DNA of 64,000 bases from Aliiglaciecola sp. LCG003 (lineage in GTDB: Bacteria > Pseudomonadota > Gammaproteobacteria > Enterobacterales > Alteromonadaceae). The stretch lies in the NCBI RefSeq assembly GCF_030316135.1, contig NZ_CP128185.1:2728001-2792000 (forward strand), read 5' to 3'. Numbering within the stretch: position 1 is the stretch's first letter; each line of letters opens with the position of its first letter. The position numbers and the translations under genes are program-made. This document shows positions 23,989-40,836 of this stretch, in pieces. A model generated the notes under the pieces. That model searched no databases, had not been told where the DNA came from, and worked only from the letters and a program-made list of their open reading frames with translations.

Positions 23989-26900
23989 ATGTTTAGCGTT
24001 GCAACCATCTCGACCGTGGTGTTTTGTTATTTATTGCTGTTGTTTTTAGTTGGCTTCATTGGCGACAAATTGTTGGACCGAAAAAAACAGCATCCACTAA
24101 TCTATGGCTTAGCCATGGGCGTCCATTGCACTTCTTGGGCTTTTTTCGGTACTTCAACCCAAGCAACACTATACGGTTGGGCGTTTGTTCCTACCTATTT
24201 AGGTGTTATTTTTGTGATGTTATTTGGCTTTACCGCGCTGAAAAAAATTGCCTTAATATGCCAGCAAAACAACGTCAGTTCACTGGCTGACTTTGTGGGA
24301 TTGCAGTATCGTCAATCTCATATGCTGGCTGCTATTGTCACTTTATTATGTTTCATTGGGGTCGTACCCTATATTGCCTTGCAGCTTGATTCAGTCACCC
24401 ACAATATCACTTTAATCTCCGCCGCAGCCCCTGATTTATCTTCTGATATAGGTTTGTATGTTACGGCTTTGCTGGCCATCCTTGCCATCTTGTTTGGTGC
24501 CCGTACATTTGATCTCATCGACAAAAAACCGGGACTGATGTTAACCGTAGCCTTTGCATCCTTGCTAAAACTTGTTGCTCTGCTGTGCGTTGGCCTGTTT
24601 GTCTGCTACGGATTGTTCGATGGTATATTTGATTTGATGGGCCAAGCACAAAACTCCCCCAACGCTAGACAAGTGATAGAAGCGGATCCGGCAATCTGGG
24701 TGTTTATCAGTCATATTTTACTTGGTATTTGTGCGATGTTTTGTTTGCCCCGTCAGTTTCATGTCAACTTTGTTGAGAATAAAGGAGAACAAGAATTAGT
24801 GACTGCTCGGTGGTTATTTCCGTTATATTTATTGGGTATGACGCTGTTTGTATTGCCAATTGCTTTGGCGGGTCAGATTTTGCTCAATCCAGAGACCATT
24901 AGCACCGATAGCTATGCACTAGCCTTACCACTAATGGCCAAGCAAAAAATCGCAACCCTAATCAGCTTTGTGGGCGGGTTAGCCGCTGCGACCAGCATGG
25001 TAATTGTTGCCACCCTTGCCGTTGGCATCATGATCTCTAACAACCTTATTACGCCCATATGGATCAAGTTCAAGCTAATTAATCAGCAACAAAACGACCT
25101 TACACCAGGAGTAATATTATTTATTCGTCGTCTGGCCATAGCCTCAGTACTATTCATCGCATATCTATATCATCGTGATGTCAGTTCGGGCTCACCACTG
25201 GTCAATAGTGGCATCATCTCTATTGCCCTACTCTCACAAATCATGCCGATGATTATCTTCGGATTATATTGGCAAAAATCTAATCGCTTAGCCGCCTTGT
25301 CAGGTCTGATTGTCGGCGCACTATGTTGGTTTTATTGGTTACTGTGGCCAAGTATTACCGGCAGTTATTATTTTGATCCTATGCCAACCGATCTGGAGCT
25401 TGGCAGAGGCTTTATGCTAAGTGTATTCGCCAATACCCTGTGTTACGTGCTAGTAACTTTACTCATCCCTAATCGAAAGTTAACTCACAGCACAGCCGAT
25501 GATACGTCAGAAGAGAGCCCGGTCCGTCAAGTTATCAAGTTGAATAGACTATTAGCACTAACTCAAAATGTATTAAATCATCATGAACAAGACGAACTTG
25601 CTACATTCTCACAACGACATTCTAGAGATGGCTATGCAAGCCCACTATTGTTGGAGCGGGTGGAAAGCATTCTTTCAGGTAAAATTGGCGGCGCTAGTGC
25701 TCGCATCCTTATCTCAGCCATATCAGAAAAAGACCAGGTATCCTTACCTGAGTTATTTGAATGGATGGAACAGGCCACTCAGACCTTTCAATTTAATCAT
25801 GAGATATTGCAATCCAGTGTCCAGCATATACAACAAGGGATCAGCGTAATAGACCCTGATTTGAAATTAATTGCGTGGAATCAGCGTTATGTGGAGCTTT
25901 TTGATTATCCTGACAACTTCATCAAAGCTGGATTATCCATGCAGGAATTACTCGAATTTAACGCTAAGCGGGGCTTGTTCGGCCACAGTGATGACGCGCA
26001 ACAAGAGATAGCCAAACGCATTGAGTACATTCGACAAGGCAGCCGATACAAATACGTTCGTAAACAACCTGGCGGTCAAGTCATAGAACTTAATGGTAGT
26101 CCACTACCAGGCGGTGGGTTCGTTACTACTTATAGTGATATAACCGAGTATATTGAAATACAACAACAACTTGAACAGGCAAAAACACAATTAGAATTGC
26201 GGGTAGCAAAACGTACTGAAGAGCTAAAAAATTCCAATCAGGCCCTGACGATAGCCAAACATCAGGCTGAACTAGCAAACGACAGTAAAACCAAATTTTT
26301 AGCCGCTGCGGGACATGATTTGATGCAGCCGTTTAATGCCGCAAGTTTATTTGGCGAGCTAATCAATCAAAAATCCTCTGAGCCAGAGATCCGTTTATTA
26401 AGTCAGTCTTTGAAAGATTCCCTTAACAACGCCGAGGAATTATTGTCTTTATTGTTAGACATGACAAAATTAGAATCTGGAATTTTAGTCCCTCACATCC
26501 AGCCATTTGCAATTACCGAAATCCTCGATCCGCTGGCCAATGAGTTTGCCATGATTGCCCAGCAAAAAGGTCTAGAATTTCATTACGTACGCAGCTCCTT
26601 ATGGATCCGCTCCGATAAAAAGTTACTGCGCAGAGTCATCCAAAACTTACTCTCAAATGCGGTGCGCTATACCGCCAAGGGTCGCATAGTTTTGGGCTGT
26701 AAACGCAATCAGCACAGTTTGCAAATTCGTGTATTAGATACCGGATCAGGAATTTCCGTTGACGAGCAACAATGCATTTTTGAAGAGTTTAGACAACTCA
26801 ATCATACCCAGCAACAGCAAGGCTTAGGATTGGGGTTAACCATAGTGGACAAGATTTCTAGTCTATTAAAACACCCTGTAAAGCTGCTGTCAGAACCAGG

Positions 26901-27360
26901 AAAAGGCAGTCAATTTAGTGTTGCAGTCAATATTTGCCAGAGTAAGTTAGCCCCGGCCAACCAACCGCCAACTCAAGAACTTAAGACAGCTATCTTAAAG
27001 GGCAAGACAGTGTTATTGGTCGAAAATGACGTTCAAACCCGCACTGCTGTGAAACAATTATTGACTAGTTGGGAGGCAACTGTGGTCAGCATAGAGACCA
27101 TTGAGCAGGTCGCTGATCTCAAACAACCTGTCGACTTAATGTTGTTAGACTATCATTTGGATGATGGCCTAACTGGCATTGAAATGAGTCATGCCATCCG
27201 TGCTCATTTTAATATCAAGCTACCTGGAATTTTAAATTCAGCCGAACGCAGTGAAGAAATGCGTTCTTGTTCCCTTGACGCGGGATTGTTGTTTTTGCCC
27301 AAACCTCTCAAAAGTGCAGCTCTTAAACGTATGCTGCGTCAGGCCAAGTTAACCGCTTAG
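23989..27360 (+). CDS. SSS-transporter/hybrid histidine kinase fusion (CrbS-like)
   Basis: 1123-residue membrane sensor. The N-terminal ~480 residues form a sodium:solute symporter (PutP/SLC5-like) domain of about 13 helices. A STAC-type linker follows near 510-590 (LLERVESILSGKIGGASARILISA falls in it). Next come a PAS domain (about 600-720), a coiled coil, a HisKA domain with phospho-acceptor H776 in AAGHDLMQP, an ATPase domain (NLLSNAVRYT, DTGSGI, GLGLGLTIV) and a C-terminal receiver with D1054. This layout is that of CrbS, which with the LuxR-type CrbR controls acetate use in Vibrio and Pseudomonas. The convergent neighbour is a LuxR-type regulator, supporting a two-gene system. The ligand here is unknown. 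Confidence 0.85.
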   Translation: MFSVATISTVVFCYLLLLFLVGFIGDKLLDRKKQHPLIYGLAMGVHCTSWAFFGTSTQATLYGWAFVPTYLGVIFVMLFGFTALKKIALICQQNNVSSLADFVGLQYRQSHMLAAIVTLLCFIGVVPYIALQLDSVTHNITLISAAAPDLSSDIGLYVTALLAILAILFGARTFDLIDKKPGLMLTVAFASLLKLVALLCVGLFVCYGLFDGIFDLMGQAQNSPNARQVIEADPAIWVFISHILLGICAMFCLPRQFHVNFVENKGEQELVTARWLFPLYLLGMTLFVLPIALAGQILLNPETISTDSYALALPLMAKQKIATLISFVGGLAAATSMVIVATLAVGIMISNNLITPIWIKFKLINQQQNDLTPGVILFIRRLAIASVLFIAYLYHRDVSSGSPLVNSGIISIALLSQIMPMIIFGLYWQKSNRLAALSGLIVGALCWFYWLLWPSITGSYYFDPMPTDLELGRGFMLSVFANTLCYVLVTLLIPNRKLTHSTADDTSEESPVRQVIKLNRLLALTQNVLNHHEQDELATFSQRHSRDGYASPLLLERVESILSGKIGGASARILISAISEKDQVSLPELFEWMEQATQTFQFNHEILQSSVQHIQQGISVIDPDLKLIAWNQRYVELFDYPDNFIKAGLSMQELLEFNAKRGLFGHSDDAQQEIAKRIEYIRQGSRYKYVRKQPGGQVIELNGSPLPGGGFVTTYSDITEYIEIQQQLEQAKTQLELRVAKRTEELKNSNQALTIAKHQAELANDSKTKFLAAAGHDLMQPFNAASLFGELINQKSSEPEIRLLSQSLKDSLNNAEELLSLLLDMTKLESGILVPHIQPFAITEILDPLANEFAMIAQQKGLEFHYVRSSLWIRSDKKLLRRVIQNLLSNAVRYTAKGRIVLGCKRNQHSLQIRVLDTGSGISVDEQQCIFEEFRQLNHTQQQQGLGLGLTIVDKISSLLKHPVKLLSEPGKGSQFSVAVNICQSKLAPANQPPTQELKTAILKGKTVLLVENDVQTRTAVKQLLTSWEATVVSIETIEQVADLKQPVDLMLLDYHLDDGLTGIEMSHAIRAHFNIKLPGILNSAERSEEMRSCSLDAGLLFLPKPLKSAALKRMLRQAKLTA

Positions 27361-27436
27361 GGCGACTATTAACCTATTAGATGAGCAGCCATTTTCACTA
27401 TATCCTGTCTGAACCGATTCTACTGTGCAAATCAGC

Positions 27437-28072
27437 TTACTGCATGATTTGCTTGAAAAGCACGCCTGCTTGAGTGCGGTTGTTCAACTTAAGTTTCTTC
27501 AAAATGGCTGAACCATGTTGTTTAATAGTGGTTTCTTTTATACCTAGTTCGTAAGCAATTTGTTTATTTAATAAACCATCAGCCATCATTTTCAGCACAA
27601 TAAACTGCTGAGGAGTGAGTTGTTCTAAGTGACGGGCAAATGATGATTGTTCATCAGGTAGCGCCTGCTCAACCTCGTCAATAAGATGAGCTGGCAACCA
27701 TTGGCCACCATCAAGCACTTGCTCGATTGCTTCGGCGATTTGCTCTAATGTGCTTGATTTTGGAACAAAGCCACTTGCGCCAAGATTAATCGCGCGCTGG
27801 ATAATTTGAGCTTGCTCCTCTGCCGATACTATAACTACCAGTACATCCGGATGCCTGAGCCGTATCTGGCTCAGGCCAAACAGACCATCATTACCTGGCA
27901 TATTTAAATCCAGAAAAACCAATTCAATTTCCGGATCTTTGACTAAACAATCCAAGGTTTCCTGCAAACTAGCAGCTTCAGCAATATTTTTATCTAATAG
28001 TGCACAGACTGCTTGCTTTAAGGCAACGCGAAAAAGAGGATGGTCATCTGCAATTAATGCTTTTACATTCAT
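27437..28072 (-). CDS. LuxR/NarL-type response regulator (CrbR-like)
   Basis: 211-residue response regulator: N-terminal receiver with phospho-acceptor Asp in VFLDLNMPGNDG, and a C-terminal LuxR-type helix-turn-helix (LTPQQFIVLKMMADGLLNKQIAYELG..KETTIKQH). ATG start. It is convergent with the SSS-kinase gene, with 76 bp between stops, and lies next to the polyester locus. Partner choice is inferred from adjacency and the known CrbS/CrbR pairing. Confidence 0.88.
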   Translation of the reverse strand: MNVKALIADDHPLFRVALKQAVCALLDKNIAEAASLQETLDCLVKDPEIELVFLDLNMPGNDGLFGLSQIRLRHPDVLVVIVSAEEQAQIIQRAINLGASGFVPKSSTLEQIAEAIEQVLDGGQWLPAHLIDEVEQALPDEQSSFARHLEQLTPQQFIVLKMMADGLLNKQIAYELGIKETTIKQHGSAILKKLKLNNRTQAGVLFKQIMQ

Positions 28073-28137
28073 AGAGTGTATTCAGTTACTTACCTTTGGA
28101 GAGAGCCGCTATATTAAGAGCCCCTCAACAGAATAGC

Positions 28138-28162
28138 AAAAAAAAGGGCGGCAAAGCCGCCC
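28138..28162 (-). terminator. Terminator of the TonB-dependent receptor gene
   Basis: GGGCGGC/GCCGCCC stem with a 3-nt loop and, on the minus strand, a run of eight T. It starts 19 bp after the receptor stop. Confidence 0.92.
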
Positions 28163-28180
28163 AAACAACACACAAAAAAG

Positions 28181-30517
28181 TTAGAAATTATAGCCCACAG
28201 TTAGGTGGATAGTTCTTGGATCCCCATAGTATCCAATCAAAGTGTTATCGCCACCTAAGCCTGGCGTGTACTGACTAATATCATTCGGCGCGTCTGGGTT
28301 TGGTGTAACGAACTGGTACCCTCCGACCAAATATTCTTCGTCGGTCAAGTTTTTAATGTGCAAACCTGCATTCCAATTACCGTCGTCGCTGTACCACACC
28401 GCACTGAGATTCAATAAACCATAACCATCTTGGTTCAACAGGTTGTCTTGCTCAAACAAGCTGTATTCGCTGCGATAGTAATAGTTCGCATTGAACATCA
28501 CATCCCCACCACTGGTGTTTAGTAGGTAGTTAACCGCAAAGTTAGCGGTTCGCTTTGGCGTGTTAGAAACTGAAAACGCTTCAGCAATGTTAATTGGCCC
28601 AGCAGGAGTATCTTCTATTACGGTGCTAAATTCAGAATTGATCAACCCTAGTGCAAAATCAAAGGTTAATGACTCTGTAGCGGCATAGGTAATTTCCGCT
28701 TCTAAACCTTGTGCGTCTGATTCACCAACATTTCCCAACACCTGATTTAAGTCAGTTGCACTATCACCGGCTATAACGGAAATGTATTGACGATCTTTAT
28801 GATCTAACGAGAACAAGGTAATGTTGGTACGCAATTTATCCGACCAATCAGCCTTGACGCCAATTTCATAGCTATCAACTATCTCTGGACGTGCACCCTT
28901 TTCTTGCGCTGTCGCCCGAGGATTAAAGGTTCCTGATTTAAAGCCCTGTGAGTAGCTGGCGAACAACATCATATCGCTACTAACTTGATATTCTAACCCC
29001 AATCTTGGAGTGAATCGGCTCCAGCTTTCTACCGCAGGTGCGTCTAAAACACCATCTCCATCTGAATCGCTACCCAATACTTGTGGTACTAAATTACCGT
29101 CTGGTCGAACATAACCAGGGATCCAGCCAGAAGACGGATATACATTGTCAAATACTAAACCATTGTTAACCGTGGCTTGCTTTTCTTCATCGGTATAACG
29201 TGCACCTACTGTCATCGATAGCTTATCGGTGATATCAAAAGATGATTGCGCATAAATCGCGACGCTTTCACTGTTATTGCAGCCTGAAACTTCACGAGTT
29301 AGCCCTGGAGTGGCAAATGCTGCACGACCTAACACACCTAAAATTGCTTCAAATTGACCACATGATTCACCATCGTAATAGTACACACCACTCACCAATG
29401 AGAATTTATCTGAGCGATAGTTTGCTTGCAGCTCGTGAGTGGTATTTTCATCTTCATAAATCGCAGGCACATCAAAAATGTCCAATGCGGTATTGTCAAA
29501 GTCAATATTGGTCGGCGAGTAACTTTCACGAGAAGAGCCAATATATTTTAATGATAATTGATCAGATACATCCCAGTTGGCCATCAAACTGAACCCTTCG
29601 GTTTCAACTTTATTTTCTGTTGGCAAACTGGTGTAAGAATCAAACACACTATCAGGCACAGGTGCATCCGTTAGCAAACTCGGTAACAGACGGTAACCGC
29701 CTTTAGAATTAGAGTCATCGACCGTTTTATCCCAATTGAAACGGAAAAACATATCATCGGCAGGGGTGAACTCTACTGTTACTCTAGCTGCTGTGACATC
29801 TTTGTTATAGTTTTCGGTATCTTGGTTAGGCAACGCAGATTGAAGGAAACTACCAAAACCATCACGATTTAGGGTAGCAAAACCTGCTCCGATATAAAGC
29901 TTGTCTTCAATAACAGGCAATTGGCCGGTTACTTTTAAATCTCGCTGGCCGTAACTGCCCACAGTAGCTCGTACTTCCATCGTTGGGTCGCCAGACATAG
30001 CCTTTGTCACATATTTAATCGCACCACCAATGGTGTTTTTACCGTATAAGGTGCCTTGTGGGCCGCGCAATACTTCTATACGTTCTACATTTAACAAGTC
30101 TAAAACTGCGCCTTGTGGGCGTGCCATATAGACATCATCTACGTAAATTCCCACGCCCGGCTCATAACCCCAAAGTGGATCCTGCTGGCCTACACCTCGG
30201 ATAAAGGCGGTTAAGGTTGAGTTTGTACCACGACTTGTTTGCAAGGTTGTATTTGGCGAAAATTGCGCTATTTCAGTAATCACCGAAGCGCCAATTTCGT
30301 CCAACTTGGTCGCCCCAACAGAGGTTACAGAGATAGGCACTTCTTGTAATGTTTCTACGGTTTTACGGGCTGTAATTTCAATTTTTTCCAGTCCACGTTC
30401 CTTTTCTTGAGCAAGTAATGGGGCCGATAGTCCAGACAACGCCACTGCACAGGCAATAGCGCTGGTTTTTAGATTCGTTCTAATAGTAGGCAAAGCATTA
30501 GACGGAGTAGTTTTCAT
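28181..30517 (-). CDS. TonB-dependent outer-membrane receptor
   Basis: 778-residue outer-membrane transporter driven by TonB. The signal peptide ends near LLAQ (residue 37). A TonB-box-like EKIEITARK stretch is followed by the plug (VERIEVLRGPQGTLYGKNTIGGAI) and a 22-strand barrel ending in Phe (LTVGYNF). The class resembles receptors for iron complexes and for carbon oligomers. It is divergent from, and shares its 215-bp promoter region with, the GntP-PHA depolymerase-bdhA operon. Import of hydroxyalkanoate oligomers is therefore my inference; a siderophore role cannot be ruled out. No SusD-like partner is present. Confidence 0.88.
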   Translation of the reverse strand: MKTTPSNALPTIRTNLKTSAIACAVALSGLSAPLLAQEKERGLEKIEITARKTVETLQEVPISVTSVGATKLDEIGASVITEIAQFSPNTTLQTSRGTNSTLTAFIRGVGQQDPLWGYEPGVGIYVDDVYMARPQGAVLDLLNVERIEVLRGPQGTLYGKNTIGGAIKYVTKAMSGDPTMEVRATVGSYGQRDLKVTGQLPVIEDKLYIGAGFATLNRDGFGSFLQSALPNQDTENYNKDVTAARVTVEFTPADDMFFRFNWDKTVDDSNSKGGYRLLPSLLTDAPVPDSVFDSYTSLPTENKVETEGFSLMANWDVSDQLSLKYIGSSRESYSPTNIDFDNTALDIFDVPAIYEDENTTHELQANYRSDKFSLVSGVYYYDGESCGQFEAILGVLGRAAFATPGLTREVSGCNNSESVAIYAQSSFDITDKLSMTVGARYTDEEKQATVNNGLVFDNVYPSSGWIPGYVRPDGNLVPQVLGSDSDGDGVLDAPAVESWSRFTPRLGLEYQVSSDMMLFASYSQGFKSGTFNPRATAQEKGARPEIVDSYEIGVKADWSDKLRTNITLFSLDHKDRQYISVIAGDSATDLNQVLGNVGESDAQGLEAEITYAATESLTFDFALGLINSEFSTVIEDTPAGPINIAEAFSVSNTPKRTANFAVNYLLNTSGGDVMFNANYYYRSEYSLFEQDNLLNQDGYGLLNLSAVWYSDDGNWNAGLHIKNLTDEEYLVGGYQFVTPNPDAPNDISQYTPGLGGDNTLIGYYGDPRTIHLTVGYNF

Positions 30518-30570
30518 TAGATGTCCTTTTACACAGTTTTCATTATTTTAATATGTGTATTGTTTGTGGT

Positions 30571-30636
30571 CAGTACTTGATGCCTGAGTACTGTAATTCA
30601 GAACGCAACGTTTTACCTTAGTACCATAGTACTATG
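30571..30636. promoter_or_regulatory. Palindromic operator candidates in the divergent receptor/permease promoter region
   Basis: Two inverted repeats share the core AGTAC. CAGTACT (30571-30577) faces AGTACTG (30587-30593) across 9 nt. CATAGTACTATG (30625-30636) is a perfect 12-bp palindrome with another AGTAC copy just before it (30620-30624). A further pair GTCTG/CAGAC lies at 30681-30696. Position between divergent start codons suggests regulator binding sites; the regulator is unknown. Confidence 0.5.
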
Positions 30637-30732
30637 TTGTTTAAACCGAAAAACGTTAACACTGTGCGGCATATTATATTGTCTGCGGTCACAGACTTGT
30701 CATTGAAATATTATTAATAAAAAGGAATACCC

Positions 30733-32028
30733 ATGCTCAGTCTGATTGGCTTAATAGGTGGACTATTGTTACTTATCATACTTACGATAAGAGGCATGAA
30801 TTTGTTTATTGCGGCACCCTTGTGTGCTTTGGTTGTAGCACTAACCAGTGGAATCCCCGTTTTTATCGGTGAAGTAAATTTTGTTGAAACCTATATGCAA
30901 GGGTTCTCGGGATTTATTGCTTCGTGGTTTTTTATGTTTTTACTTGGCAGTTTGTTTGGCAAATTCATGGAGGATACCGGCGCAGCTGACGCGGTTGCCA
31001 AAGCTATTATTAAACGTCTAGGCAAACAACATGCAGTGGCAGCAGTGGTGATTGCTTGCGCCATACTAACCTATGGTGGCGTGAGTGTTTTCGTGGTCGC
31101 TTTTTCCGTTTACCCAATGGCATTAAGTCTATTCAAAGACGCAAATTTACCCCGTCGTTTTATTCCCGCGGCCCTCGCTTTCGGCTCGGTTACCTTTACC
31201 ATGACATCGGCGGGCTCGCCGGAAATTCAAAACTGGATCCCAATTAAATATTTAGGTACATCCCCTTTCGCTGCTTGGGAAGTTAGCTTAGTAGTCGCCA
31301 TTTTCATGGCAACTATGGGTTTTTGGTGGATCCGCAAAATGATCAACAAAGCTCTTGCCAACGGAGAGACTTTTGAACATAAAGAGCATGACCCAGAAAT
31401 AGCAGAACGTGACTACCCCCATCCGCTTACAGGACTCTTCCCTTTATTAGTCGTGTTGGTATTGTCTTTTAGCTTGCATGAAGCTTTACAGCAAATGGCA
31501 TTAATAGTTGCACTTGGTGGTGGTGTGATGACATTGATTATCATCAACTACAAATATTTCCACAACTTTGGTGCGGCGGTGACTTTAGGCACTACAGGTG
31601 CCCTGATTGCCATCGGCAACACCGCTGCTGTGGTTGGTTTTGGTACCATCGCAAAATCAACGCTAGCCTTCCAACAAGCTGTTGAAATAATGACTCAAAT
31701 ACCCGGTAATGAGCTTATCGGCGCGGCAATAGCGGTAAGTGTGATCGCAGGCCTCACCGGTTCAGCATCAGGTGGTCAGGCAATAGCCTTGCCTTTGGTT
31801 GGTCCACACTACATGGATCAGGGAGTCGACCCGGAGCAACTGCATAGAATAGTCTCTATCTCATCCGGCGCGCTAGATTCATTACCTCACAACGGTTATG
31901 TGGTCACTACCATACGCGCCATTTGTCATGAAACCCATCAACGGGCCTATTGGGCTGTTGGGGCGCTCACCGTGGTTGTGCCATTAATAGGCTTGTCATT
32001 GGCCATTGCATTATTTAATTGGTTTTAA
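30733..32028 (+). CDS. GntP-family permease, probably for 3-hydroxybutyrate or related short acid
   Basis: 431 residues of inner-membrane transporter with about 12 hydrophobic segments. The LTYGGVSVFVVAFSVYP stretch and SGSASGGQAIALPL near the C-terminus are typical of the GntP/gluconate-type family. ATG with AAGGAA upstream. First gene of a tight operon (gaps 9, 15 and 21 bp) with the MetX-like hydrolase, PHA depolymerase and 3-hydroxybutyrate dehydrogenase. GntP permeases next to bdhA are known in other proteobacteria as hydroxybutyrate transporters, so that substrate is the best guess. Confidence 0.85.
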   Translation: MLSLIGLIGGLLLLIILTIRGMNLFIAAPLCALVVALTSGIPVFIGEVNFVETYMQGFSGFIASWFFMFLLGSLFGKFMEDTGAADAVAKAIIKRLGKQHAVAAVVIACAILTYGGVSVFVVAFSVYPMALSLFKDANLPRRFIPAALAFGSVTFTMTSAGSPEIQNWIPIKYLGTSPFAAWEVSLVVAIFMATMGFWWIRKMINKALANGETFEHKEHDPEIAERDYPHPLTGLFPLLVVLVLSFSLHEALQQMALIVALGGGVMTLIIINYKYFHNFGAAVTLGTTGALIAIGNTAAVVGFGTIAKSTLAFQQAVEIMTQIPGNELIGAAIAVSVIAGLTGSASGGQAIALPLVGPHYMDQGVDPEQLHRIVSISSGALDSLPHNGYVVTTIRAICHETHQRAYWAVGALTVVVPLIGLSLAIALFNWF

Positions 32029-32037
32029 GGTAACTCG

Positions 32038-33276
32038 ATGAATAATCATTTAATACATAGGTCAAATTCGCCGTCGTTGAAGCGTTTTCCTGTCAACTAT
32101 ATCTGGGCCATAGCCCTATCATCTATCCTAGCTATCATGTGCAGTTCAGTGAATGCTGAGTTGTTGGTGGATAAACAAACTTTCACCAGCCAAAACTTCA
32201 AGACTTTTAATGGTAATAACATAAAGGAAGTGAATGTTGGCTGGGAAAGCTATGGCAACCTAAACCCACAAAAAGATAATGTAATACTAATTACCCATTA
32301 TTTTACCGGCAACTCCCACGCAGCCGGAAAATATGATGTAGCCGATGCCAGCCTGGGATATTGGGACGCCATTATAGGCCCTGGGAAAGCAATCGACACC
32401 AATCGCTTTTTTGTGATCAGTGTGGATTCTTTGGCTAATTTAGGTGTTGGTGATCCCCATGTGATCACAACGGGTCCAGCGTCCATCAACCCCGACACTC
32501 AAAAACCTTATGGTCTAGACTTCCCGGTGGTTACCATTCGTGATTTCGTCAATGTTCAAAAGCTGGTGCTTGAATCTTTGGGTATTCAAAAACTATACGC
32601 TGTCGTTGGGCCCTCAATGGGTTCAATGCAAGCCATCGATTGGGCGGCAGCTTATCCGAGTAAAGTTGAACGAATGATGTCAGTTATAGGAGCTGGCCAA
32701 TCCGACCCTTGGACAACGGCACTTTTAGAACATTGGGCCACGCCAATCAAACTCGATAGAAATTGGAACGATGGCGATTATTATGCCGGTTCAGCCCCTA
32801 TTGACGGATTAACCGCGTCATTAATGTTGATCACTCAAAATGCCCTATCTGCGGATTTTTTCAACCAACTAGGCAAACAAACTGTGCCCTTTCAGGCCCT
32901 CGAAAGTGAGCCATTGCATGATATTCGAAAATCTCACAGCATAGTTAATTGGCTGCGCAGCAGAGCACAGGCCCGCGCGACAACTATGGATGCAAATCAT
33001 CTGCTTTATTTAGTCAGGGCCTGCCAGCTATTTATCACCGGCCATCAACATGATTTTTCTAAAGCCATCGCGAGCATCACAGCAAAGACATTGTTCCTAC
33101 CCGCTACCCAAGATCAACTGCTGATGCCCTACCACGCTAAACAAACTCATCAAGCATTGATCGATAGCGGTAAAAAAAGCCAAATTAAAATGCTTGAAGG
33201 CCCCTTGGGACATCTTGAAGGTGTAACTGGCATCTCCCAGCATACTGATGCTATCCGCGCTTTCCTAAAACAATAA
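32038..33276 (+). CDS. Secreted MetX-fold alpha/beta hydrolase
   Basis: 412 residues of the homoserine O-acetyltransferase (MetX) fold: NVILITHYFTG corresponds to the family's first-strand motif, nucleophile elbow GPSMG has Ser193, and the late Asp (ATQDQLL) and His (GPLGHLEG) complete a triad. Unlike cytoplasmic MetX, it carries a hydrophobic signal segment at about 20-40 ending SSVNA. It lies between a permease and a secreted PHA depolymerase. A periplasmic esterase acting on hydroxyalkanoate oligomers or esters therefore seems likelier than methionine synthesis. That function is inference. Confidence 0.75.
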   Translation: MNNHLIHRSNSPSLKRFPVNYIWAIALSSILAIMCSSVNAELLVDKQTFTSQNFKTFNGNNIKEVNVGWESYGNLNPQKDNVILITHYFTGNSHAAGKYDVADASLGYWDAIIGPGKAIDTNRFFVISVDSLANLGVGDPHVITTGPASINPDTQKPYGLDFPVVTIRDFVNVQKLVLESLGIQKLYAVVGPSMGSMQAIDWAAAYPSKVERMMSVIGAGQSDPWTTALLEHWATPIKLDRNWNDGDYYAGSAPIDGLTASLMLITQNALSADFFNQLGKQTVPFQALESEPLHDIRKSHSIVNWLRSRAQARATTMDANHLLYLVRACQLFITGHQHDFSKAIASITAKTLFLPATQDQLLMPYHAKQTHQALIDSGKKSQIKMLEGPLGHLEGVTGISQHTDAIRAFLKQ

Positions 33277-33291
33277 GAGCTGGAGTTTCAT

Positions 33292-34275
33292 ATGAAAAAT
33301 TTATTACTGTTAGCTTTACCTATGCTGGTTTCAAAAGCCTTTGCTGGCCCTTTGCAACAGCTGGATTTAGATATTGAGCATATCAGCGTATCGGGGATTT
33401 CAAGTGGCGGATTTATGGCGAATCAATTTCACCTTGCCCACTCTAAATGGGTCGATAAAGCTGCGATCATTGCTGCTGGGCCATATTATTGTGCACAGGG
33501 ATCTATTGGTGGCGCATTATCCCAATGTGTAAACAAAGTGGATACCCCCATCGACCTTGCCTTGCTTAAGCAACAAGCCGAGAATTATGCCAAAGCTGGA
33601 CTGATTGATGCAATTGGTAACTTACAGCACAGCAAGGTTTGGTTATTTCACGGTAACAAAGACACCCGCGTAATTGCCCCGGTCAGCGAAGCACTGTTTA
33701 CCCAATATTCAAACTGGATAAAGCCTGAAAACCTTAAATACATTAGCGACAAGCCATTCGCTCATCACTTTCCAACCCAAAAAAACGGCCACCAGTGCGA
33801 TGAATCCAAAGCGCCATTTATCGGTAAATGTAACTATGATGCCGCGGGTGAGTTTTTGTCATTTTTGTTCGATTCGTTGAAACCAGCTAGCGAGAAACCT
33901 AGCGGTCAGGTAGTGGAATTTGATCAACGTGAATTGGGCGGTGAAGTCGCGAGCACATTGGCAAAAACAGGTTATGCGTATGTGCCCAATAGCTGTAGTC
34001 AAGGTGAGCAATGCACCCTTCACATGAGCTTTCATGGCTGCAATCAGAACGCAGAGGCTGTAGACCAGCAATTCATTCAACAAAATGGCTTAAACAACTG
34101 GGCCGATAGTAACCATATGGTTGTCTTGTACCCCCAAACTCGTGCATCCATGATGATGCCACTCAACCCTCAAGGTTGCTGGGATTGGTGGGGATATACC
34201 GGCGAGAATTATGCAACTAAATCTGGCAAACAGATTCAGGCTGTCGAAAATATTGTTAAACACATGGCTAAATAA
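33292..34275 (+). CDS. Secreted short-chain polyhydroxyalkanoate depolymerase, type-2 catalytic domain
   Basis: 327 residues with signal peptide ending KAFA-G (about residue 18). The lipase box GISSG (Ser37) is near the N-terminus, followed by Asp124 (GNKDTRV), His167 (NGHQCD) and, last, the oxyanion region SFHGC (His248). That order is the type-2 arrangement of extracellular PHA depolymerases. There is no linker or substrate-binding domain at the C-terminus, so it is about one domain long and may act on oligomers or amorphous polymer, perhaps in the periplasm. Several cysteines could form disulfides. GGAG precedes the ATG; third gene of the operon. Confidence 0.85.
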   Translation: MKNLLLLALPMLVSKAFAGPLQQLDLDIEHISVSGISSGGFMANQFHLAHSKWVDKAAIIAAGPYYCAQGSIGGALSQCVNKVDTPIDLALLKQQAENYAKAGLIDAIGNLQHSKVWLFHGNKDTRVIAPVSEALFTQYSNWIKPENLKYISDKPFAHHFPTQKNGHQCDESKAPFIGKCNYDAAGEFLSFLFDSLKPASEKPSGQVVEFDQRELGGEVASTLAKTGYAYVPNSCSQGEQCTLHMSFHGCNQNAEAVDQQFIQQNGLNNWADSNHMVVLYPQTRASMMMPLNPQGCWDWWGYTGENYATKSGKQIQAVENIVKHMAK

Positions 34276-34296
34276 ATAGAGCTAATAGGGGAATTT

Positions 34297-35064
34297 ATGT
34301 CTACTAAAACCGTATTAATTACCGGTGGTGCAAGTGGTATTGGCTATGGCATTGGCGAATACTTAGGGAATCAAGGCCATCATATAGTGATTGCTGATAT
34401 CAATGGCCAGTCTGCTGAGTTAGCGGCCGGCAAATTGAGGAAGTTAGGTATAGTTGCAGACTCTATCGTAATAGATGTATCCAGTAGCCAACAAATAGAA
34501 GGCTTGGTTGATGCCTTGATGCCACTTCAAATAGATGTATTGATTAATAATGCTGGCATTCAACATGTCTCTAAATTGGAAGATTTCCCTGCGGATAAAT
34601 GGCAGATGTTAATCAATATCATGTTAGTTGGACCCGCATTATTGTCGAAGGCTTTTTTGCCCGGTATGCGAGAGCGTAATTTTGGCCGTATTATTAATAT
34701 TGGCTCCTTGCATTCATTGGTCGCCTCCCCCTACAAATCAGCTTATGTAGCCGCGAAACATGGTCTGCTCGGCTTTGCCAAGACGGTGGCATTGGAGATT
34801 GGGCAAGCAAACATCACGATAAACACCCTATGTCCGGCCTATGTGAAAACCCCACTGGTGGAACAACAAATCGCAGCACAAGCCTTGCAAAATAATATAA
34901 CTGAAGCAGAAGTGATCGATAAAATAATGCTTGAGCCAATGCCAAAAAAGGCGTTTATCAGTATCGATGAACTTGCCGCTAGCGCCGCCTTTTTGATCAG
35001 TGATGGAGCTCGTAACATGACGGCTCAAACCCTAGTAATTGACGGTGGTTGGACTGCACGTTGA
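34297..35064 (+). CDS. bdhA: 3-hydroxybutyrate dehydrogenase (SDR)
   Basis: Cytoplasmic short-chain dehydrogenase oxidising (R)-3-hydroxybutyrate to acetoacetate with NAD. The 255-residue protein has nucleotide motif TGGASGIG at 9-16, NNAG at 84-87, catalytic S137, Y150 and K154, and the BdhA-typical SPYKSAYVAAKHG and YVKTPLVEQQI stretches. GGGGA precedes the ATG. Last gene of the operon. No acetoacetate-activating gene follows here. Confidence 0.9.
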   Translation: MSTKTVLITGGASGIGYGIGEYLGNQGHHIVIADINGQSAELAAGKLRKLGIVADSIVIDVSSSQQIEGLVDALMPLQIDVLINNAGIQHVSKLEDFPADKWQMLINIMLVGPALLSKAFLPGMRERNFGRIINIGSLHSLVASPYKSAYVAAKHGLLGFAKTVALEIGQANITINTLCPAYVKTPLVEQQIAAQALQNNITEAEVIDKIMLEPMPKKAFISIDELAASAAFLISDGARNMTAQTLVIDGGWTAR

Positions 35065-39810: not shown

Positions 39811-40836
39811 ATGAAGCTTAAAACAATTACCATCGATTTGGCAAAGACTGTATTTCAAGTGTGCGGAGTAAATGAACATATTAAACCGCAATTTAATAAG
39901 AAATTAAAACGGACTGAGCTACTTGATTTTATGCGCCAACAACCACCTACGTTGGTGGTGATGGAAGCCTGTTATTCATCGCATTACTGGGGGCGTGAAA
40001 TTGCTAAATTAGGTCATGATACCAAGCTTATACCAGCCCAACATGTCACGCCTTTTGTGCGAGGCAACAAGAATGACCATAACGATGCTTTTGCCATAGC
40101 AGAAGCCAGCCAGCGCTCACATATCCGCTTTGTCCCCGTAAAATCTGAGCAACAGCAAGAAATTAATTGCTTGCATCGAATTCGAGAGCGCTTAATTAGA
40201 AACAAAACGGCCCTGAGTAACCAGATACGCGGGTTGTTAAGTGAATTTGGGGTAATATTTCCTTGTGGCCACGTGGCCTTGTGTGCAGGATTAGCCCAAG
40301 TAATTGATAGCGAACAACGCAGTAACCAGTTGAGAACCATGATGCGCGCGTTAAAGGCAGAATATGAAGACACACGCTCTCGCATCAAGGCCATTGAGCA
40401 GCAATTGCATCACTTTGTTAATAACAGTGAAAGTGGCAAAATATTGCTCAGCATCCCAGGGATTGGTTTCATTAATGCCTCAGCGTTTTTAGCCGCCATT
40501 GATAAAGGCCAGGCGTTTAATAATCCCAAAGAATTTGCCGTGTGGTTAGGGCTGACGCCTAAACAACACGCCTCAGGCAATATCAGTAAGATGGGCGGCA
40601 TTACCAAACGCGGAGACCGTTATTTACGTAAACAACTGGTACATGGTGCGCGGTCTGTCGTGAGTCGTGCCGCGCAAAGAACTGATCCGTTATCACTGTG
40701 GGCCACTAAACTTCGCGTTACCAAGCCGTTTAATAAAGTGGCAGTCGCCGTCGCCCATCGTTTAGCACGTTTAATCTGGATATTGCTCACACGTCAGGAG
40801 CACTATCGCGTTACGTCCTCACAAGTGAGCGCATAA
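39811..40836 (+). CDS. IS110/IS1111-family transposase (DEDD-type)
   Basis: 341 residues, full length. The N-terminal RuvC-like DEDD domain begins TITIDLAKTVFQVCGV (first Asp at 9), with further acidic residues in VVMEAC and KNDHNDAFAIAEA. A coiled coil (about 175-210) leads to the C-terminal Transposase_20 domain (LLSIPGIGFINASAFLAAI), with its conserved serine region near SKMGGITKRGDRYLR. Such enzymes recombine DNA directed by an element-encoded guide RNA. No frameshift is seen. Confidence 0.95.
   Translation: MKLKTITIDLAKTVFQVCGVNEHIKPQFNKKLKRTELLDFMRQQPPTLVVMEACYSSHYWGREIAKLGHDTKLIPAQHVTPFVRGNKNDHNDAFAIAEASQRSHIRFVPVKSEQQQEINCLHRIRERLIRNKTALSNQIRGLLSEFGVIFPCGHVALCAGLAQVIDSEQRSNQLRTMMRALKAEYEDTRSRIKAIEQQLHHFVNNSESGKILLSIPGIGFINASAFLAAIDKGQAFNNPKEFAVWLGLTPKQHASGNISKMGGITKRGDRYLRKQLVHGARSVVSRAAQRTDPLSLWATKLRVTKPFNKVAVAVAHRLARLIWILLTRQEHYRVTSSQVSA

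Follow-up and report, generated by a model that had tools for sequence, protein, structure and literature searches.

We describe a gene block of Aliiglaciecola sp. LCG003 (Alteromonadaceae) that is probably a TonB-coupled locus for the utilisation of poly-3-hydroxybutyrate (PHB) or oligomers of 3-hydroxybutyrate (3HB), equipped with a signalling pair of its own. The window analysed is a stretch of 64,000 nucleotides (NZ_CP128185.1, positions 2,728,001 to 2,792,000) and contains the block at positions 23989-35064, bounded by grpE and nadK (both named by eye). The block encodes a TonB-dependent outer-membrane receptor (TBDR), a GntP-family permease, an E22 MetX-like esterase, a type-2 PHB depolymerase (PhaZ), a 3-hydroxybutyrate dehydrogenase (BDH) and an SLC5-fused hybrid histidine kinase with a LuxR-type response regulator. 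In the mechanism that we propose, the exported single-domain depolymerase would cut PHB or long oligomers, the receptor would move oligomers of 3HB through the outer membrane, E22, likewise exported, would complete their cleavage to 3HB in the periplasm and GntP would bring 3HB into the cell, where BDH would convert it to acetoacetate for activation by a CoA-transferase encoded at 1.927 Mb of the genome. Kinase and regulator may answer to 3HB or to a product of its use, the regulator activating both the receptor gene and the operon through a single common palindrome.

Comparison with relatives suggests a wider view, to which we give even chances: polyester loci of Gammaproteobacteria may be modular, the receptor lineage and the kinase/regulator/operator unit staying constant while depolymerase (type 1 or type 2), oligomer hydrolase and carrier change together in matching combinations, with GntP accompanying exported E22 or 3HB-oligomer hydrolase (3HBOH) and an MFS carrier accompanying non-exported HSL-type esterase. 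On this view E22 proteins would cleave 3HB oligomers in the periplasm, a role so far unrecognised, and the kinase would sense 3HB.

Gene identities and genomic background

The first-pass annotation of this DNA had described four co-directional genes, for a GntP permease, a MetX-fold hydrolase, a polyhydroxyalkanoate (PHA) depolymerase and BDH, with a TonB receptor divergent from them. We recovered all five open reading frames (ORFs) at the same coordinates, GntP, E22, PhaZ and BDH following one another at distances of 9, 15 and 21 bp, curated profiles agreeing with their names, and the receptor gene separated from GntP by a divergent intergenic region of 215 bp. Its reading of the genes as a polyester-utilisation locus is supported by these identities and by co-occurrence in relatives; the kinase, the regulator and the operator had been overlooked.

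PhaZ (33292-34275, plus strand) scores 393 bits against the type-2 short-chain-length PHA depolymerase family NF050059 (cut-off 280), has an export-signal-like N-terminus and can be aligned from residue 26 to residue 325 with the PHB depolymerase structures 2D80/2D81 (E 3e-49), with no extra domain. Residues S37, D124 and H158 are conserved at the positions aligned with what we take to be the catalytic triad of 2D80. The E22 protein (32038-33276, plus strand), also with an export-signal-like N-terminus, matches NF005262 with 597 bits (cut-off 450), and its closest solved relative is esterase E22 (5JKF, E 9e-170), an entry carrying no name beyond esterase; it is no member of the 3HBOH family PF10605, Abhydrolase_1 being its sole Pfam match at E<=0.001, and we propose it as a 3HB-oligomer hydrolase. 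BDH (34297-35064, plus strand) scores 320 bits against TIGR01963, just above the cut-off of 307, and has the solved relative 3V2H (E 1.5e-60).

The permease (30733-32028, plus strand), a putative 3HB importer of the inner membrane, matches GntP_permease PF02447 with 44 bits (cut-off 22.5) and stays under the cut-off of the gluconate:H+ symporter family TIGR00791 (43.9 vs 292.75 bits). The receptor (28181-30517, minus strand), the candidate importer of 3HB oligomers, has the barrel PF00593 (136 bits) and the Plug domain PF07715 (65 bits). Its best NCBIfam match is a TonB-siderophore subfamily below cut-off (177.8 vs 223.5 bits), and a search for solved structures gave no close relative, the nearest being the pesticin receptor 4EPA (E 3e-22). 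An AlphaFold2 (AF2) model of the receptor reached a pLDDT of 68.4, its plug part being unreliable.

A profile search, with a positive control in Caulobacter, gave no PhaC_N match in the complete genome of LCG003. The genome thus lacks a PHA synthase, and the polyester must be of external origin. A Thalassotalea genome is likewise described as having PHB depolymerases but no genes for PHB synthesis (PMC7564069; this and the other papers given by PMC number are cited for the parts of their text available to us). The genome has one ScoA, at 1.927 Mb. Its second PF10503 match was rejected as a further depolymerase, reaching 23 bits in an ORF that resembles an S9-type peptidase (by eye).

Conservation of the block in relatives

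For the best 80 of 307 PhaZ relatives, taken from named genomes, we collected the surrounding loci, ORFs being called mechanically. PhaZ is 42-60% identical to the window protein in this set. A TBDR is present in 67 of the 80 loci, and TBDR, GntP, E22 and PhaZ occur together in 63. Routine absence of the receptor from such operons, which the first-pass annotation had named as speaking against its reading, is not what is seen so far. Among the 13 loci without a called TBDR, L051 and L072 are cut there by a contig end and 11 are distant relatives; a check of 12 distant PhaZ loci for a receptor of this kind found it in L097 only. GntP is 65-91% identical over 69 loci of the set, and of all proteins in the block it showed the strongest conservation (30733-32028; median identity 80.7% vs 70.1% for nadK). 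In 43 of 62 four-gene loci nadK comes after BDH, and in 19 it does not (some being contig ends), so the block stays together where its surroundings differ as well.

We then sampled 196 genomes of the family with E-value thresholds of our own choosing (receptor 1e-180, GntP 1e-120, PhaZ 1e-20), the receptor counts being lower bounds because the best 5 candidates per genome were scored (2 at order level). PhaZ was found in 71 genomes, the receptor in at least 134 and GntP in 114, all three lying within 9 kb in 55, so the co-occurrence that the first-pass annotation had proposed to look for is indeed found. Of the 71 PhaZ genomes, all encode GntP and 69 the receptor. Receptor and GntP are adjacent without an adjacent PhaZ in 30 of the 196 genomes, 13 of which keep PhaZ elsewhere. 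The receptor family is wider than the operon as first described. PhaC occurs in 27 of the 196 genomes; 16 of the 71 PhaZ genomes have it and 55 do not (lists compared by eye).

Alternative architectures around the receptor

All 79 family receptor loci (of 134) without an adjacent type-2 PhaZ were fetched. The largest group, 34 loci, carries a type-1 PHB depolymerase, 23 of them also an MFS carrier and an HSL-type esterase. The type-1 gene lies directly upstream of the receptor and co-directional with it in 30 of these loci and about 4 kb off in 4; all 34 proteins match NF050058 at E<=1e-10, and the two compared with its cut-off both exceed it. Seven loci have the order GntP-E22-BDH-ScoA-ScoB, the latter two being 3-oxoacid CoA-transferase A/B, and 19 have GntP-E22, with BDH nearby in 10 and a type-2 PhaZ elsewhere in the genome in 13. 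In 16 further loci the arrangement is GntP-acyl-CoA ligase-E22, without BDH, CoA-transferase or depolymerase nearby, and three loci have other architectures. Taken together, 53 of the 79 loci still carry a PHB/3HB-specific gene, i.e. a type-1 depolymerase, BDH or CoA-transferase.

The ligase version was seen in L139, L141, L146, L182 and 12 more loci. The L139 ligase is nearest to a 3-(methylthio)propionyl-CoA ligase profile, under its cut-off, and lies above cut-off only for a broad long-chain acyl-CoA ligase subfamily, suggesting that loci of this type may serve another acid. As a separate observation, the receptor gene of L080 (5071-7332) is inverted relative to other loci of the same layout, still within the block.

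At order level, the receptor occurs in at least 48 of 394 genomes, 20 of them outside the family, and all 20 loci of the latter were fetched. They comprise 8 with a type-1 depolymerase (by phmmer), 6 with 3HBOH, 1 with GntP-E22-PhaZ, 2 with GntP-E22-BDH and 3 others, the six 3HB-oligomer hydrolases scoring 388-520 bits against PF10605 (cut-off 27). L097, from a distant member of the Steroidobacteraceae, unites regulator, kinase, GntP, receptor, type-2 PhaZ and a 3HBOH-like gene (phmmer 337 bits). The architectures are intermingled on a tree of 167 receptors, type-1 loci falling into several separate clades, and the enzymes have thus apparently been exchanged around one receptor lineage. Common to most of the exchanged enzyme sets is PHB/3HB.

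The esterase class goes along with the carrier class, gene classes being assigned by phmmer score thresholds that we set. E22 is found in 110 of the 167 receptor loci, the HSL-type esterase in 31 and 3HBOH in 7, no locus having two of these classes; E22 (110/110) and 3HBOH (7/7) come with GntP and the HSL-type esterase (31/31) with MFS. The 19 loci without any of the three include 12 type-1 loci. A hydrophobic N-terminus was called for 107 of 110 E22, 7 of 7 3HBOH, 67 of 70 type-2 and 42 of 42 type-1 proteins and for 2 of 31 HSL-type proteins, by a crude heuristic that 49 of 93 BDH proteins, expected to be cytoplasmic, also pass. These patterns suggest that a permease for the monomer may go with cleavage outside, and a carrier for intact oligomers with cleavage inside, and that E22, by analogy, may occupy the place held by 3HBOH in other loci.

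A kinase-regulator pair and a proposed shared operator

Next to the receptor lies a pair of signalling genes resembling CrbS/CrbR (MxtR/ErdR). The kinase (23989-27360, plus strand) has the Pfam domains PAS_7, HisKA, HATPase_c and Response_reg, preceded by 12 hydrophobic segments within residues 1-496. A profile search of the kinase gave no Pfam SSF match. An AF2 model of residues 1-560, built from 18 sequences (pLDDT 76.9), matches SGLT2, SiaT, CHT1 and NIS with E 3e-10 to 3e-8 and TM about 0.6-0.7, and the N-terminal part is thus modelled as an SLC5 transporter. The same layout, an SLC5-like domain with PAS, kinase and REC domains and a LuxR-type regulator, is described for CrbS/CrbR (PMC7918813).

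The regulator (27437-28072, minus strand; Response_reg and GerE in Pfam) has ErdR as its best NCBIfam match, under the cut-off (213.7 vs 390 bits), and shares 47-48% identity with two further regulators that the genome encodes. One of these stands beside acs at 3.69 Mb, which adjoins this CrbR-like regulator and the end of a hybrid kinase (named by eye), and the pair of the window is therefore additional to the acetate system. The third CrbR-like regulator of the genome (2065916-2066536; 48% identical to that of the window) was seen to have an adenosine-deaminase-like gene (by eye) after it. Among the 167 receptor loci, 158 contain the LuxR-type regulator, in 146 of these directly downstream of the receptor on the same strand, and 125 contain the kinase.

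The divergent promoter contains the palindrome TAGTACCATAGTACTA (30619-30634), a putative site of the local regulator, whose exact 16-base form has a single copy in the entire genome. Between receptor and GntP, the intergenic regions of 66 loci, that of the window among them, have the pattern TAGTACCAT[A/C]GTACTATGGGC in common; 61 of the 66 agree with at least 15 of its 20 fixed positions, and one shuffle of each region never gave more than 13. A core form, fixed after the alignment of the 66 loci had been viewed, lies upstream of 143 of 165 receptors (two of the 167 loci offer too little upstream sequence) and in 9 of 3211 random windows; by class it was found in 101 of 110 GntP/E22, 33 of 42 type-1, 4 of 7 3HBOH and 5 of 6 other loci. 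The CrbR-dependent ACTU site of Pseudomonas fluorescens acs, TACTACCATCGTCGAAT (PMC5715377), agrees with the common form of the relatives at 13 of 17 positions and with that of the window at 12 of 17 (our count). We infer that regulator and operator bind each other and that 3HB or PHB induces the locus.

A second conserved dyad, GTCTGCGGTCACAGAC (30681-30696, plus strand), lies just upstream of GntP and recurs in 44 of 165 upstream regions. Its exact 12-base core occurs once in the genome; considered as a genome-wide operator, it gave 12 sites at <=1 mismatch vs 13 for the backward control. Control of the promoter by CRP was considered as well, matches being near the shuffle level. An intrinsic-terminator-like site in the gap between TBDR and regulator (28146-28162, minus strand; stem of 7 G-C pairs, 3-nt loop, T8 tail) may end transcription there; the region has 8 such sites vs 7.0 in shuffles, this being the strongest by eye.

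Outside the block, an IS110-type transposase-like ORF (by eye) lies at 39811-40836, about 5 kb past it. Elsewhere in the genome, at 2.12-2.17 Mb, open frames of 8740 and 4799 amino acids with repeated AMP-binding-type matches are probably nonribosomal peptide synthetases.

Discussion

The link between such a receptor and PHB is already known, as a neighbourhood prediction with induction by carbon limitation. The receptor MASE_06600 of Alteromonas macleodii ATCC 27126, probably an orthologue of the window receptor, adjoins a PHB depolymerase, has PHB as its predicted substrate and is induced under carbon (log2FC 1.59), not iron, limitation (PMC7190382). The remark in the first-pass annotation that no receptor-bearing polyester locus is well described stands insofar as we found no functional study of a PHB-linked receptor of this kind in the open-licence literature, and has to be amended insofar as the prediction is in print. 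The regulator pair, the operator, the modular swapping and the suggested role of E22 were not found in the same literature. PHB depolymerase and BDH genes have been noted in Aliiglaciecola (PMC10821302), and a type-1 PHB depolymerase of Alcanivorax is reported in a text that, as far as available, does not mention TonB (PMC7187450).

The substrate of the receptor might be a different oligoester, or hydroxy-acid esters more broadly, PHB being one use and PhaZ an accessory that comes and goes. This would account for the receptor-GntP pair being wider than PhaZ (30 of 196 genomes), for the 16 ligase loci and for the bare designation of 5JKF as an esterase; we nevertheless regard it as unlikely, since PHB/3HB-specific genes persist in 53 of the 79 loci without adjacent type-2 PhaZ, 3HBOH appears in 6 of the 20 loci from other families and 13 receptor-GntP genomes keep PhaZ elsewhere. 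Far less probable is an internal role of the locus, in recycling PHB that the cell itself has made or in serving a 3HB pool inside it. BDH and CoA-transferase do act in internal PHB turnover of other bacteria, and the PhaZ genomes with PhaC would fit, but LCG003 and the 55 genomes without PhaC do not, an outer-membrane receptor would be useless for internal stores, and depolymerase and E22 have export-signal-like N-termini; with no PhaC_N match in its own genome we rejected this explanation. We also rejected, as very improbable, an iron-siderophore receptor merely adjoining a 3HB operon, to which the sub-threshold siderophore profile and the pesticin receptor 4EPA might point. The receptor is retained through swaps of the 3HB gene sets with the same operator core upstream, a motif scan of the receptor-GntP promoter has so far brought out no Fur-like site that would fit iron regulation, which the first-pass annotation had set against its own proposal, and MASE_06600 of A. 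macleodii, with its neighbouring PHB depolymerase, responds to carbon, not iron (PMC7190382).

Several observations weigh against a PHB/3HB-oligomer locus with a dedicated receptor. Both depolymerase classes are, by length, too short for a catalytic plus a binding domain, which makes attack on solid PHB uncertain, and 3HB monomers and dimers might pass porins unaided. Most neighbours of the carbon-responsive A. macleodii receptors are not co-induced (PMC7190382). Among the 134 family receptor loci, 26 lack any gene specific to PHB/3HB in the stretch examined (16 GntP-acyl-CoA ligase-E22, 9 GntP-E22, of which 6 keep a type-2 PhaZ elsewhere, and 1 cut by a contig end), and the substrate there may be broader or different. 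Eleven distant PhaZ loci of the 80 have neither receptor nor GntP in the flank examined, and 12 of 42 type-1 loci have no HSL or MFS gene nearby. At <=2 mismatches the operator has two further places in the genome, which is not above the backward control (4 vs 4). Finally, relatedness among the sampled genomes inflates the raw counts, and the neighbourhood counts cover this receptor family only.

Schemes of PHB degradation usually leave the outer-membrane passage of breakdown products to porins. If a TonB-coupled PHB/3HB-oligomer locus is the correct reading, an energised receptor with a sensor would set polyesters beside polysaccharides as marine TonB-coupled substrates, genetic markers for users of PHB and bioplastics in metagenomes would become available and three poorly defined families, i.e. 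the receptor, the E22 esterases and the CrbS-like kinase, would gain testable functions.

Among known systems, the MASE_06600 locus comes from the same bacterial family and likewise has a receptor beside a PHB depolymerase; it is known from a neighbourhood prediction with transcript data, and the available text does not name the kinase-regulator pair, the operator, E22 or the alternative architectures (PMC7190382). With the CrbS/CrbR acetate system the window shares an SLC5-fused hybrid kinase, a LuxR-type regulator and a palindrome similar to the ACTU motif (PMC5715377), and differs from it in a pair separate from the acs-linked one, a regulator under the ErdR cut-off and an exact palindrome confined to this locus. 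3HBOH (PF10605) stands in some receptor loci without E22, and the role it may share with E22, which lies outside that family, is proposed by analogy. The enzyme 2D80/2D81, which we take to be that of the fungus Penicillium funiculosum, resembles PhaZ over the mature length, at the triad positions and in having no extra domain, and differs in being fungal. Three features by which TonB-coupled polymer utilisation (PUL-like) loci of Proteobacteria are recognised are present: a receptor with Plug and barrel, co-localised hydrolases (their export called by the crude heuristic), permease and catabolic enzyme, and a local regulator with a conserved, presumptive site in the shared promoter. Induction by the polymer and uptake that depends on the receptor, also typical of such loci, are predicted for this one. 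Polysaccharide- or carbohydrate-TonB loci of Proteobacteria unite a receptor, exported hydrolases, an inner-membrane permease, a catabolic enzyme and a local regulator in one block, and the locus described here has the same composition, except that its proposed substrate is a polyester and its hydrolases are esterases.

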